This document shows, piece by piece, positions 13,319-34,712 of a DNA stretch of 64,000 nt. Positions within the stretch are counted from its first letter, which is position 1; each line of letters starts with the position of its first letter. Origin of the DNA: Candidatus Zhuqueibacterota bacterium (GTDB lineage Bacteria > Zhuqueibacterota > Zhuqueibacteria > Oceanimicrobiales > Oceanimicrobiaceae); contig JAJDAD010000092.1 in NCBI GenBank assembly GCA_029262055.1, positions 248,001 through 312,000 of the forward strand. Direction: 5' to 3'. The notes beneath the pieces are model-generated. The model was not told where the DNA came from. It was given only the letters and a program-made list of their open reading frames with translations, and did no database searches. The position numbers were made by a program, and so were the translations under genes.

Positions 13319-13408
13319 TTACCACAGATCTACTGATGCAGAACCCGTTTGTTTCAAGAAATCTGTTCTTTTTGCAATTGCATGAATCTGTTCGAAGCAG
13401 TCATCGGG
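13319..13408 (-). pseudogene. Out-of-frame candidate C-terminal tail of ArgH
   Basis: Shifting the argH frame by one base near GATTCCCGATGAC gives 29 further codons ending in TAA at 13321-13319, reading [16 protein letters not shown] and then a tail ending SASVDLW. Many ArgH proteins end with an acidic/helical stretch and an R-T-x-x-G-S-x-x-x-L-like tail, so this looks like the displaced end of argH. The region would bring the protein to about 420 residues. It ends just before the tetR operators. Confidence 0.45.
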
Positions 13409-14579
13409 AATCCCTGGCGACAGTCTGATATGCATCACGAAACGACACGCCTCTTTTTACCAATTCGTAAGCGCGTTCCGTCGCAAAAATGTCCGGGGTC
13501 AGACCCCTGGCGCAATTCTGTTTGTTTACTACCAGATTGGCAGTCACCAGCGCCATAATCGAAAGCGAAGCGAGGGTGGTGGCAAACCCTTTCAGAGTCG
13601 GTTCCTTGGTCAACTGCAGGTCGCGGTGGTAACCGGAGATTTGGTTTGCGACCGTTGCCCTTATCTGTGCTTCGCAGGCCGACACCAGATGGTAGTTGCC
13701 GCGCACAAGCTCCAGAACGTCCGGGTTCTTCTTTTGCGGCATGATCGAGCTGCCCGTACAAAATTCTGACGGGAGCTCCAAATAACCATTTTCCGGCAAG
13801 CTGAAGAAAATGAGATCAGTTGCCATCCGGTTCAAATCCAGCATGATTTGCGCGAGGGCGTTCAGAATGATGCCCTCAAACTTGCCACGGCTCAATTGCA
13901 CGTACACCGGGTTTTTTTGGACTTTTTTGAATTGCAGCAGCTTTGCCGTGAGTTGGCGGTCGACTTTGATCGGTACTCCGAAGCCGGCGCCACTTCCGAG
14001 TGGCGATTGGTCTGAGATGCGGTCTGTGGTCGCCAGTAGTTTCAGGTCGTCGCCAAGCGCATCGCGGTAAGCACCGGCCCACTGCGGAATGCTCGAGGGC
14101 ATGGCTTTGCGCGTATGCGTATACCCGGGAAACGAGACCCTGGGATATCGGCCGGCAAGCTGCTTCAGTGCTGCTACGAGTTTGTCTGCTGCGGAGCGGC
14201 ATGCTTGCAGTTGGTCGCGGTAAAGCAGGCGCAGGGCCGTCAACACCTGGTCATTGCGGGAGCGACCCGTGTGGATTTTCTTGCCCAGCTCCCCCAATTC
14301 CCTGGTCAAATGTAGTTCAATGGCCGTGTGGCAGTCTTCCTGGTCAGGGAGGATTTTGAATTCACCCGCCTGCTCGAGCGCCTGAATTCTGTTGAGTTCG
14401 GCAACTATGTCTTTCACTTCCTGCTTGCTCAGGACGCCGATCATGCCGAGCATTTTTGCATGCGCAATCGATGCCAGGCAATCATACTTGACCAGCGCTT
14501 GGTCGAGCAGATAGTCATTCCCCACAGTGAAAGACTCGACCTCCTTGTCTAACGAAGCATCTTTCTGCCAGAGTTTCAT
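13401..14579 (-). CDS. argH: Argininosuccinate lyase, 3' end probably frameshifted
   Basis: Catalyses the last step of arginine synthesis, argininosuccinate to arginine and fumarate. The start ATG at 14579 (AGGTG upstream) overlaps the argG stop as ATGA; an in-frame ATG at 14621 inside argG is not used in this call. The 392 residues contain the fumarase/aspartase-superfamily signature [24 protein letters not shown] and a [13 protein letters not shown] motif. The frame stops soon after [12 protein letters not shown], earlier than in most homologues. One base out of frame, 13408-13319 stays open for 29 codons with a plausible ArgH-like tail (IAKRTDF, TGSASVDLW), so either an indel or frameshifting is likely. 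See the finding. Confidence 0.93.
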
Positions 14580-15856
14580 TTTGTCACCTTTGTTCGTTGG
14601 ACGTCGCTTTTCCCGCGCCAATCATACGGTTTGCGTTTTCTCAGCACCAGGTTGTGTGCCTTTAAGCGGATGGCGTTGATGTTGATAAATCCGGTGGAGT
14701 CCGTGGCATCGAATCCCCCTTCGACTTCCATGCTGGAGAGTTCCTGGTCGTACAGCGATGTGGGAGACTCTCTGCCGACAACCCGCGCGTTGCCCTTGTG
14801 CAGCGAGACCAGAACCCGGCCATCGACCGCTTCCTGACTCTTGTTAAACGCACTCATGATAAAGTCCATCTCAGGAGAAAACCAGAAGCCGTTGTAGATC
14901 AGCTCAGCAAACTTGGGAATAAGCGTGTCGCGCAGGTGAATAACTTCTTTGTCCATGGCCAGACCTTCCAAATCACGATGCGCTTCCCACAGAATGGTGG
15001 CTGCCGGGGATTCGTAAACACCGCGCGATTTGATGCCGATATACCGGTTTTCGACCATGTCGACCCGGCCGATGCCGTTCTCGCTACCGATCTGGTTCAA
15101 ATACAAAAACAGATCCAGTGGAGCCGTGCACTCGTCACCGTTGGTCTGATTGAACACTTTGACCGGGTTGCCGTTTTGAAAGAAAATCTCCAGAACGGTC
15201 TCCTTTTCCGGGGCTGCCTGCATTGCAGAGGTCCACGAAAAGACATCTTCCGCCGGGCGACGCAGCGTGTCCTCCAAAATCCCGGCCTCATGGCTGATGT
15301 GCATCAAATTTTCGTCTTCGCTGTACGGCTTGGCCTTCGACGCTTTTACCGGAATATCCCATTCTTCAGCATAATTGATCAGGTCTGTCCGCCCCTTAAA
15401 CTGCTGCATAAAGGCGGGCGTTTTCCACGGTGCAACGATCTTGATTTCAGGGTTGAGGGCGTAGTAGGTTAGCTCAAACCGAACCTGGTCATTACCCTTG
15501 CCGGTGGCCCCGTGCGAAACATACTGCGCGCTTTCCAGCTTCGCGATTTCGATCTGCTTCTTCGCCAGCAGCGGACGTGCGAGGGCAGTGCCGAGAAGAT
15601 ACCGGCCCTCGTACAGAGCATTGCCGCGCAGGGCCGGGAAGATGTAGTCCACCACAAACTCCTGGCGCAAGTCTTCGACATACGTTTTGGATGCGCCGGT
15701 GGCATGCGCTTTTTTCGCGATTTCGTCAAAATCCTCCTGCTGCCCGACATTGCCCACAAAGCAGATTACTTCAAAGCCTTCATTGAGCAGCCATTTGAGT
15801 ATGACCGACGTGTCGAGTCCGCCGCTGTAAGCCAGTACCACTTTCTTGTTAGCCAT
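14576..15856 (-). CDS. argG: Argininosuccinate synthase
   Basis: Joins citrulline and aspartate with ATP to give argininosuccinate, in the cytoplasm. The ATG at 15856 has AAGGA eight bases upstream and gives 426 residues beginning with the family N-terminus; an in-frame upstream ATG at 16018 would add 54 residues read from the leader and is rejected. The PP-loop motif [10 protein letters not shown] is at residues 8-17. Further family motifs: [35 protein letters not shown], and YDQELSSM near the end. argH follows with an ATGA overlap. Expression is probably controlled by the attenuator upstream (leader peptide 16073-15963, terminator 15933-15894). Confidence 0.97.
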
Positions 15857-15893: not shown

Positions 15894-15933
15894 AAAAAAG
15901 GCCCTTCCAAAAACTTGCGCGATTGGAAAGGCC
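15894..15933 (-). terminator. Attenuator terminator in the argG leader
   Basis: On the - strand GGCCTTTCCAA (15933-15923) pairs over 11 bp (one G-U) with TTGGAAGGGCC (15910-15900), followed by six T (15899-15894). It lies 38 bases before the argG start, after the Arg-rich leader ORF, exactly where an attenuator is expected. Its 5' arm (CCTTTCC, 15931-15925) can alternatively pair with GGAGAGG (15982-15976) inside the last Arg codons of the leader. Confidence 0.85.
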
Positions 15934-15962
15934 ACTGTAATTGCAATCTATGGTGAATCACC

Positions 15963-16073
15963 TTAGGGCATTGAACCTCTCCGGAATGGACTACGCCTCC
16001 TGTTAGAGTCGGCGACAACTCGCCTGGAAATGTTCTGCCTGCGGATAACCGCTGTGTTTATTGTGATATTCAT
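15963..16073 (-). CDS. Arginine-rich leader peptide of argGH attenuator
   Basis: A 36-codon ORF from ATG at 16073 to TAA at 15963. Nine residues are Arg (11, 12, 17, 18, 25, 26, 27, 31, 32), in pairs and one triplet, and all six Arg codons occur (CGC, CGA, CGT, CGG, AGA and four AGG). An in-frame TAG lies two codons upstream, so ATG is the only normal start; the Shine-Dalgarno is weak. The ORF sits between a TTGACT-N17-TAGATT promoter and an intrinsic terminator directly ahead of argG. This is the arrangement of ribosome-mediated attenuation (as in trp or his leaders): stalling at Arg codons when Arg-tRNA is scarce would free GGAGAGG to block the terminator. Function is inferred; the sequence pattern is direct. 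Confidence 0.8.
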
Positions 16074-16095
16074 GAGATTCTATATTGAGTGCGAC

Positions 16096-16124
16096 AATCT
16101 AACCAACGCCATTTCTAAAGTCAA
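16096..16124 (-). promoter_or_regulatory. Promoter of the argG leader and argGH
   Basis: TTGACT (16124-16119), 17-base spacer, TAGATT (16101-16096) on the - strand. Transcription would begin near 16089, about 16 bases before the leader peptide ATG. The promoter lies just downstream of the aldo/keto reductase stop. Confidence 0.6.
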
Positions 16125-16137
16125 GTCGGAATTCGAC

Positions 16138-17112
16138 TCATTTTTCTGAACCGGGCCCGTTTTCACTCAGCAAACGGTCGATCTCTGCCAAGTCGGCGCC
16201 GGACAATGTGGACGTGAGCGCCTGCAAGTTGTCTGCAATTTGGGCCGGACGGCGGGCGCCGACAATTGCGGCCGTAACCTCTGGCCGCCGCAGGACCCAA
16301 TTGATCGCCAGGTCTGGGACGCTGAGATTGCGCTCGCCTGCGAACGTGCGTAGGGCGTCGACCAGCTTTAGATTCGCGGAAAGGCCGGGCTCTTTAAAGT
16401 TTGAGTCTGAGATTCGCCGGTGATCCTGCCCCGGCAGCCGATCGACGAAGGCGCGGGAGAATTTGTCGGTGAGCACGCCTTTTTGCAGGGGACTGTAGCA
16501 GATCACGCCGATGTCGTGCTCGCCACAAAAGCCGAGCATCTCTTCTTCGATCTCACGGCGAATCATGCTGTACGGTGGCTGCAGGGCAGCCGGAGAAGCG
16601 ACAGCCCGGATCTGCTTCATCTGTGCGACATCAAAGTTGCAGACGGCGGCATATCTGATTTTGCCCTGATCAATTAGTCTTTGCATGATTTCCCAGGCAA
16701 CGTCGATCTCGGACTCGGGATTGGGCCAGTGGATTTGATAAAGGTCGATGGTTTCGACCTCTAGCCTGCGCAGGCTAGCTTCGACCTCGGTCGCGACACT
16801 TTCGGCTGTGAGACGGGGAATGACCTTGCGTTTGGCGTTCCACGTTAAGCCGCATTTGGTAGCAATAATCGGGCGGTGACCAAACTCCTTGATGGCCTTT
16901 GCCACTACTTCTTCAGCGCGGCCCAGACCGTAGATCGGCGCCGTGTCAATCCAGTTTATGCCGCCCTCAAGGGCAGCGGTGATGGTTTCGAGAGAATCCT
17001 TTTCATCTTGCGGCCCCCAACCGTAGCGCCAGTCGCCACCGCCAATTGCCCACGTGCCGAGGCCGATTCGGGTTAATTCCAAGTCAGTGCTGCCGAGCCT
17101 TTGCGTTTGCAT
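16138..17112 (-). CDS. Aldo/keto reductase
   Basis: A 324-residue NAD(P)H-dependent aldo/keto reductase with a TIM barrel. Clear motifs: RIGLGTWAIGGG at the start, GINWIDTAPIYGLGRAEEVV with the catalytic Asp and Tyr, a catalytic Lys in IIATKCGL, YQIHWPNPE in the middle strand, and the C-terminal cofactor motif AIVGARRPAQIADNL. The start ATG has GGAGG about seven bases upstream. It stands alone between the argG leader and the lytTR gene; the argG promoter lies just after its stop. The physiological substrate cannot be told from sequence; homologues reduce small aldehydes or sugars. Confidence 0.92.
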   Translation of the reverse strand: MQTQRLGSTDLELTRIGLGTWAIGGGDWRYGWGPQDEKDSLETITAALEGGINWIDTAPIYGLGRAEEVVAKAIKEFGHRPIIATKCGLTWNAKRKVIPRLTAESVATEVEASLRRLEVETIDLYQIHWPNPESEIDVAWEIMQRLIDQGKIRYAAVCNFDVAQMKQIRAVASPAALQPPYSMIRREIEEEMLGFCGEHDIGVICYSPLQKGVLTDKFSRAFVDRLPGQDHRRISDSNFKEPGLSANLKLVDALRTFAGERNLSVPDLAINWVLRRPEVTAAIVGARRPAQIADNLQALTSTLSGADLAEIDRLLSENGPGSEK

Positions 17113-33955: not shown

Positions 33956-34028
33956 GCCACCATAGCTCAGTTGGTAGAGCACCTCACTTGTAATGAGGCT
34001 GTCGCGGGTTCGACTCCTGCTGGTGGCT
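33956..34028 (+). tRNA. tRNA-Thr (anticodon TGT)
   Basis: A full cloverleaf: acceptor GCCACCA/TGGTGGC, D-arm GCTC/GAGC, anticodon stem CCTCA/TGAGG with loop CTTGTAA, T-arm with TTCGACT loop. The discriminator is T and CCA is not encoded. It is the first tRNA of a Thr-Tyr-Gly-Thr series in the order known from E. coli thrU-tyrU-glyT-thrT. Confidence 0.97.
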
Positions 34029-34040
34029 CTTTTTGTTTAT

Positions 34041-34125
34041 GGAGAGGTACCCGAGTGGTCAAAGGGAACAGACTGTAAATCTGTCGGCTCAGCCTTCGGA
34101 GGTTCGAATCCTCCCCTCTCCACCA
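34041..34125 (+). tRNA. tRNA-Tyr (anticodon GTA)
   Basis: Acceptor GGAGAGG/CCTCTCC, anticodon stem ACAGA/TCTGT with loop CTGTAAA, a long variable arm (class II) and T-arm GGAGG/CCTCC. Discriminator A is followed by CCA, which the four other tRNAs here lack; it may be coincidental. The GTA anticodon makes it a queuosine substrate, and queA lies upstream. Confidence 0.97.
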
Positions 34126-34194
34126 GAATTTGTCTTTTTTTGAGTCGGGTATATTGGGATCTTCGGCTGTTTGGGCACATATGTTTAACTGCAA

Positions 34195-34270
34195 CTGTAC
34201 GGAGGTAGGCGATATGGCCTGGCTTGAGCAGTCGCCGCTGGCTAAGGTGGTTTGAGTGCAAATCGTACAG
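34195..34270 (+). other. Structured spacer with 7-bp closing stem next to tRNA-Gly
   Basis: CTGTACG (34195-34201) is perfectly complementary to CGTACAG (34264-34270), which directly abuts the first base of tRNA-Gly. Inside, GGCGA/TCGCC and GGTTTG/CAAATC can also pair. The element is 76 bases, tRNA-sized, but I cannot fold a normal T-arm or anticodon arm. It also holds ATG at 34214 after CGGAGGT, opening a 13-codon frame to TGA at 34255. It may be a processing element, a decayed tRNA or a regulatory small ORF. Confidence 0.4.
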
Positions 34271-34343
34271 GCGGGAGTAACTCAATTGGTAGAGTCACAG
34301 CCTTCCAAGCTGTTGGTCGCGGGTTCGAGTCCCGTCTCCCGCT
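34271..34343 (+). tRNA. tRNA-Gly (anticodon TCC)
   Basis: Acceptor GCGGGAG/CTCCCGC, anticodon stem ACAGC/GCTGT with loop CTTCCAA, T-arm GCGGG/CCCGT with TTCGAGT loop; CCA not encoded. It begins immediately after the 76-base structured spacer. Confidence 0.97.
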
Positions 34344-34355
34344 CACTAGGTTGTG

Positions 34356-34428
<73 letters not shown>

Positions 34429-34476
34429 CTGGCTGTATAATGGTAATTGGCGGAACACAATTAGGATGGAGCGGTT

Positions 34477-34626
34477 ATGCGCGTTTTAGTTGTTCTGGAA
34501 TGCACAGAGTGTAAGAACAGGAACTACACGACGACAAAGAACAAGTCTTTACATTCTGGTCGGGTGGAGTATAAAAAGTATTGCAGGACATGCAATAGTC
34601 ATACTGCCCACAAAGAGACCAGGTGA
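34477..34626 (+). CDS. rpmG: 50S ribosomal protein L33
   Basis: A 49-residue zinc-binding form of L33, with CTEC near the start and CRTC later as the four zinc ligands, and the family pattern [16 protein letters not shown] precedes the ATG. It lies between tRNA-Thr(GGT) and tRNA-Trp, in the usual rpmG-tRNA-Trp-secE-nusG neighbourhood. Confidence 0.95.
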
Positions 34627-34639
34627 ATAGGATTTATTT

Positions 34640-34712
34640 AGGTGAGTAGCTCAACTGGCAGAGCACTGGTCTCCAAAACCAGGGGTTGCGGGTTCGATTC
34701 CTGCCTCACCTG
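34640..34712 (+). tRNA. tRNA-Trp (anticodon CCA)
   Basis: Acceptor AGGTGAG/CTCACCT, D-arm GCTC/GAGC, anticodon stem CTGGT/ACCAG with loop CTCCAAA, T-arm GCGGG/CCTGC, discriminator G. It sits 13 bases after rpmG and 41 before secE, the classical position. Confidence 0.97.

Follow-up and report, generated by a model that had tools for sequence, protein, structure and literature searches.

A putative arginine leader-peptide attenuator upstream of argGH and its recurrence across three bacterial phyla

The argGH operon in the window (the whole 64,000-nt stretch of DNA that was analysed) is preceded by a short region that very probably acts as a ribosome-mediated transcription attenuator sensing arginyl-tRNA. 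Such attenuation had been proposed in a sequence-only reading of this DNA, and the proposal gains support from the recurrence of the arrangement in a second operon of the same genome (G000, from an uncultured bacterium of candidate phylum KSB1), in family relatives, in Neomarinimicrobiota and in Thermotogota, together with the absence of ArgR and of a T-box.

The argGH leader region and its proposed mode of action

The features of the region are as follows.

16138-17112, same strand as argG: aldo/keto reductase gene
16119..16124, minus strand: -35 hexamer TTGACT (read from sequence)
16096..16101, minus strand: -10 hexamer TAGATT, N17 spacer to the -35 hexamer (read from sequence)
15963..16073, minus strand: Arg leader peptide ORF, 36 codons, 9 Arg (ORF analysis)
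15974..15982, minus strand: antiterminator 5' strand GGAGAGGTT, overlapping the Arg31-Arg32 codons (fold and duplex calculations)
15923..15933, minus strand: terminator 5' arm GGCCTTTCCAA, able to pair instead with the antiterminator strand (sequence and folding)
15900..15910, minus strand: terminator 3' arm TTGGAAGGGCC (sequence and folding)
15894..15899, minus strand: terminator U-run TTTTTT (read from sequence)
14576..15856, minus strand: argG, argininosuccinate synthase (Pfam PF00764/PF20979)
13401..14579, minus strand: argH, argininosuccinate lyase, its start overlapping the argG stop (Pfam PF00206 Lyase_1)

The promoter (16124-16096), the 36-codon ORF with nine Arg residues (16073-15963) and the 11-bp stem with six T that begins 29 nt past the ORF (15933-15894) are all as the sequence-only reading had described them, with Arg at leader residues 11-12, 17-18, 25-27 and 31-32. 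The Arg codons, in order CGC AGG AGG CGA AGG AGG CGT CGG AGA, comprise all six types, five of the nine being AGG or AGA. The same reading held that all Arg isoacceptors are monitored, but this trait is not conserved: the Arg codons of the Neomarinimicrobiota leaders are mostly CGN. The putative leader start is an ATG with a promoter and, three codons upstream, an in-frame TAG, because of which this ATG is the first start, and no clear Shine-Dalgarno sequence was seen 5' of it. Comparable promoter-like pairs also lie 5' of leaders in relatives, and GGAGG-like sites precede several Thermotogota leaders, those of the L187 type having a good ribosome-binding site.

The GC-rich terminator hairpin (-19.8 kcal/mol) and its six U are separated from the argG ATG by just 37 nt, which include a Shine-Dalgarno sequence for argG. 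As a result, argG mRNA must read through the terminator: a promoter that serves argG has to be upstream of the hairpin, and expression of argG always entails read-through. The genes downstream, argG and argH, make the amino acid that would be sensed; an ASL_C2 match in argH was under its Pfam cut-off. The 216-nt leader folds better than its shuffles (z -3.2), and a leader-plus-terminator detector run on both strands of the whole window returned a single pair, the argGH element. Elsewhere in the window, a cluster of five tRNA genes is located at 33956-34712 (plus strand).

We propose that RNA polymerase would initiate some 20 nt upstream of the leader ATG, with a ribosome following. With enough Arg-tRNA, the ribosome would arrive at the leader stop codon and cover GGAGAGGTT, whereupon the terminator hairpin would form and transcription would end before argG. 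With Arg-tRNA scarce, the ribosome would stall at Arg11-12, 17-18 or 25-27, leaving GGAGAGGTT free to pair with the terminator 5' arm, and transcription would run on into argGH. The antiterminator strand includes the codons of Arg31-32, so that a stall at these two would promote termination, and the sensing codons are most likely those at 11-12, 17-18 and 25-27. Leader translation, ribosome stalling, and the direction and size of the regulation are predictions of this model.

The GGAGAGG/CCTTTCC antiterminator pairing suggested earlier is possible, in that GGAGAGGTT (15982-15974) is able to pair with GGCCTTTCC. We took the 3' part of the leader, which lies past a ribosome sitting on the main Arg cluster, and compared the duplex that it forms with the 5' side of the terminator against duplexes from shuffled leaders. 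For argGH, p was 0.043 with the 5' arm alone as partner and 0.12 with a longer partner, so that the signal of this element on its own is modest. Across groups the signal was strong for nine Thermotogota (Fisher p about 2e-13), followed by eleven Neomarinimicrobiota (5e-7) and four KSB1-family elements (0.004), although these values are optimistic because each group consists of related sequences. When the ribosome was placed with Arg25-27 in the A site, about 80% of the argGH 5' arm was sequestered before the 3' arm was made, while with the ribosome at Arg31-32 or at the stop codon, where it would mask the antiterminator strand, the 5' arm was mostly free (0.11-0.26). A general folding-switch score showed no excess over shuffles among 26 elements (mean 0.38 vs. 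0.32), but this score is uninformative because a GC-rich arm finds a pairing partner in nearly any sequence; the argGH element itself scored 0.90, a value reached by 2% of shuffles. The covariation analysis that the sequence-only reading had advised bore fruit in Thermotogota, where the antiterminator, and likewise the 1:2 hairpin, has changes on both sides and loses its pairing when slid by one column, but covariation among six Neomarinimicrobiota sequences was too weak to stand alone.

Recurrence in a second operon and in other phyla

ArgJ was absent from G000 and its family in Pfam searches, which turned attention to the LysW route. In G000 the LysW-type arginine operon, lysW-lysX-argC-argX-argB-argD, likewise has a putative attenuator in front of it (G000:C16:120252-120073, within a region at about 120344-120006). 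It has a promoter (TTGACATT...), a leader with six Arg and four Lys (MNRVSPKSYNVRPSNLVGRKNHLPRPAGKRSLIGKGISTRI) and a terminator (AAGCCTTTCCAAA; AAGCCTTTCCAAATGTACTTTGGAAAGGCTT followed by a U-run). G000 has two LysX-type ligases, and a class-II glutamine-amidotransferase-like ORF (L251, G000:C16) sits between argX and argB, inside the LysW-type operon.

Elements before lysW were also found in two family relatives, G002 (L210; leader MSSSKANNHRPFRPETRHGLRPIFAWRGHVDPD, terminator AAAGGCCTTTCCAAG) and G005 (L209; leader MKNIFKQPNPVNPLPLRKTPLRPYGIKFGAWKDNEATL, terminator AAAGCCTTTCCAAG). All four KSB1-family elements (argGH, G000 lysW, G002 and G005) carry GCCTTTCCAA in the terminator 5' arm, matched by a G-rich antiterminator strand inside the leader (GGAGAGG, GGGAAAGG, GCTTGGAGAGG and CTTGGAAAG, respectively), and because these are common to all, the four sequences are probably related by descent. 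The G002 leader is Arg-rich (5 Arg in 33), whereas that of G005 has just 2 Arg vs. 5 Lys; in the G005 operon a homocitrate synthase follows lysW, whereas G002 has a mere fragment resembling the start of homocitrate synthase at the same place. This is suggestive of a leader specificity, Lys or Arg, that follows the product of the lysW operon.

We scanned the sequence upstream of argG in KSB1 relatives, in Neomarinimicrobiota and in Thermotogota, a comparison that the sequence-only reading had called for, and Arg-rich leaders with terminators recurred in other genomes. The detector gave 20 matches in 300 kb of sense sequence upstream of argG, 19 of them adjoining argG, compared with 1 match in 795 kb of antisense sequence. 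In Neomarinimicrobiota, an Arg-rich leader and a strong terminator lie shortly before argG in at least 11 genomes (L154, L159, L160, L162, L164, L165, L167, L170, L176, L177, L083; for example, leaders MLNNRRNNRQNRRRSNHMEGHR and MNMTHVNIALINNRRRHPERQGTGV). In Thermotogota, at least nine genomes have an Arg-rich leader and terminator before argG (L183, L185, L186, L187, L189, L190, L198, L199, L200; for example, ...NIRRRTRCRWVMNGA), of which L185, L189 and L200 came to light outside the automatic detector, through the terminator that they have in common, and were read manually. The leader peptides are unrelated between phyla, and what recurs is Arg codons shortly 5' of the antiterminator strand. 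We regard the Neomarinimicrobiota and Thermotogota leaders as independent cases. The candidates L014 and L072 did not pass the antiterminator test, and neither is included in the counts.

Other designs were also seen before argG. In KSB1 families f2 (L006, L007, L008) and f3 (L028, L035) and in L026 (genome G070), Arg leaders lie 97-130 nt before argG, their ORFs ending in RRRRAGVAPRP-stop, RRRLRRA-stop or RRFRRN-stop; the last Arg codons form a GC-rich hairpin reaching to the stop codon, the typical U-run is absent, and ArgR is absent from these genomes where tested. Such leaders possibly act through Rho-dependent or translational control. At L065, within about 300 nt 5' of argG, a T-box-like GGGTGGTACCGCGGGAGC followed by a hairpin GGCCCTCGTCCC was recognized by eye, suggesting that a candidate T-box before the same type of argG may be a third solution in that lineage.

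Alternative explanations and the distribution of ArgR

It might be argued that the hairpin is merely the 3' terminator of the aldo/keto reductase gene, which has the same orientation and its end some 200 nt upstream, that the Arg-rich ORF arose by chance, and that the argG promoter is elsewhere. Indeed, when the leader region was dinucleotide-shuffled 5000 times, 13 of the shuffles (about 1 in 400) held a complete ORF with at least nine Arg. However, a promoter is present between the reductase gene and the hairpin, the 37 nt before the argG ATG are too short for a promoter plus leader, and the arrangement is repeated before another arginine operon of G000 and across three phyla, where the upstream genes differ, making this explanation very unlikely.

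A different possibility is that nascent-peptide arrest, a mode of action attributed to SpeFL, makes the leader a sensor of a small molecule (arginine, ornithine or an inhibitor) rather than of uncharged tRNA. Stretches of Arg in a nascent chain can hold up the ribosome. A leader containing Arg has a precedent in Salmonella speF (PMC6386406). Against this, the peptides differ wholly between lineages, and what is kept is Arg codons before the antiterminator strand, so we consider this possibility equally improbable. The leader might instead act on translation, Rho-dependent termination or mRNA decay, as the speF and rbfL Arg leaders do through RNase G, Rho or occlusion of the ribosome-binding site, and the Arg leaders of KSB1 families f2 and f3 have no intrinsic terminator. 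Yet a strong hairpin with a U-run is found in the argGH element and in most relatives, with a 5' arm capable of pairing with the 3' part of the leader; this explanation is, if anything, slightly less probable still than the previous two. An attenuator that responds to arginyl-tRNA through its intrinsic terminator is the reading we prefer.

Bacterial arginine genes are known to be controlled by ArgR/AhrC or by T-boxes. ArgR (PF02863) is absent from G000, a genome that is 97% complete, and from its whole family. The whole window was scanned against Rfam, and the leader more permissively, with no T-box match at the gathering cut-off or at E<=5 and no match to any known leader family; an isrD match (E 0.32) was below its cut-off. 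None of the leader-bearing genomes has ArgR (0/11 in Neomarinimicrobiota and 0/9 in Thermotogota), compared with 10 of 20 Neomarinimicrobiota genomes whose argG locus was examined and lacks a leader, and 8 of the 20 Thermotogota examined that lack a leader (G390-G397), but the two distributions follow lineages, so that species are not independent points. In Neomarinimicrobiota genomes with ArgR, argR is usually directly 5' of argG (e.g., G119:C21, G170:C285 and G163:C122), where the leader sits in genomes that lack ArgR. An apparent exception, L014, comes from a genome (G075) with two ArgR copies, one of them just 5' of argG, and is one of the uncounted candidates above. At the level of clades, the pattern is what the substitution of one regulator by the other would give.

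Taken together, we consider it somewhat probable that Arg-tRNA attenuators are a widespread, undescribed alternative to ArgR, with ArgR or an attenuator, almost never both, being used in KSB1, Neomarinimicrobiota and Thermotogota, and with the elements having arisen or been replaced repeatedly around one exchangeable type of argG. If so, leader attenuators would gain a missing member, an Arg-specific stalling type present in three phyla. It would also suggest how arginine is regulated in lineages without ArgR, LysW route included, and would show clearly how an RNA switch and a protein regulator can replace each other.

Comparison with known systems

In the open-access literature that we searched, no arginine biosynthetic operon is described as having an arginine leader attenuator, although an earlier mention is possible. 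A comparative survey of Actinobacteria places arginine under T-boxes, not attenuators (PMC1262725), and a broad survey of premature terminators does not mention arginine (PMC2965389). The mechanism is a known one (trp/his type); its specificity for arginine biosynthesis is undescribed as far as we found in that literature.

Arg codons in leaders are known from other settings. In Salmonella, consecutive Arg codons of the speF leader ORF34 (SpeFL) sense arginine (PMC6386406). The speF leader controls ornithine decarboxylase via RNase G and Rho, whereas the argGH element would control biosynthesis via an intrinsic terminator. In Staphylococcus aureus, Arg codons of the rbfL leader peptide sense arginine restriction (PMC13009471); this leader works by occlusion of the ribosome-binding site of a biofilm regulator, and low arginine lowers expression, unlike what we propose for argGH.

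Arg T-boxes and ArgR/AhrC, like the argGH leader, tie arginine genes to arginine status. However, a T-box makes direct contact with tRNA and is marked by a conserved motif, which is absent from the argGH leader, and ArgR is a DNA-binding repressor that G000 lacks. In fungi, the arginine attenuator peptide (arg-2/CPA1) is encoded by an arginine-responsive upstream ORF on an arginine-pathway gene, but it is a eukaryotic case of nascent-peptide arrest and acts on translation, unlike the argGH element. The classical attenuators (trp, his, leu, ilv, thr and phe) have the same parts, that is, a promoter, a short leader ORF rich in codons for the product, an antiterminator and a terminator as alternatives, and a biosynthetic operon downstream. 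In contrast to these, the argGH-type elements, which match no Rfam family, appear to be specific for Arg and occur in KSB1, Neomarinimicrobiota and Thermotogota.
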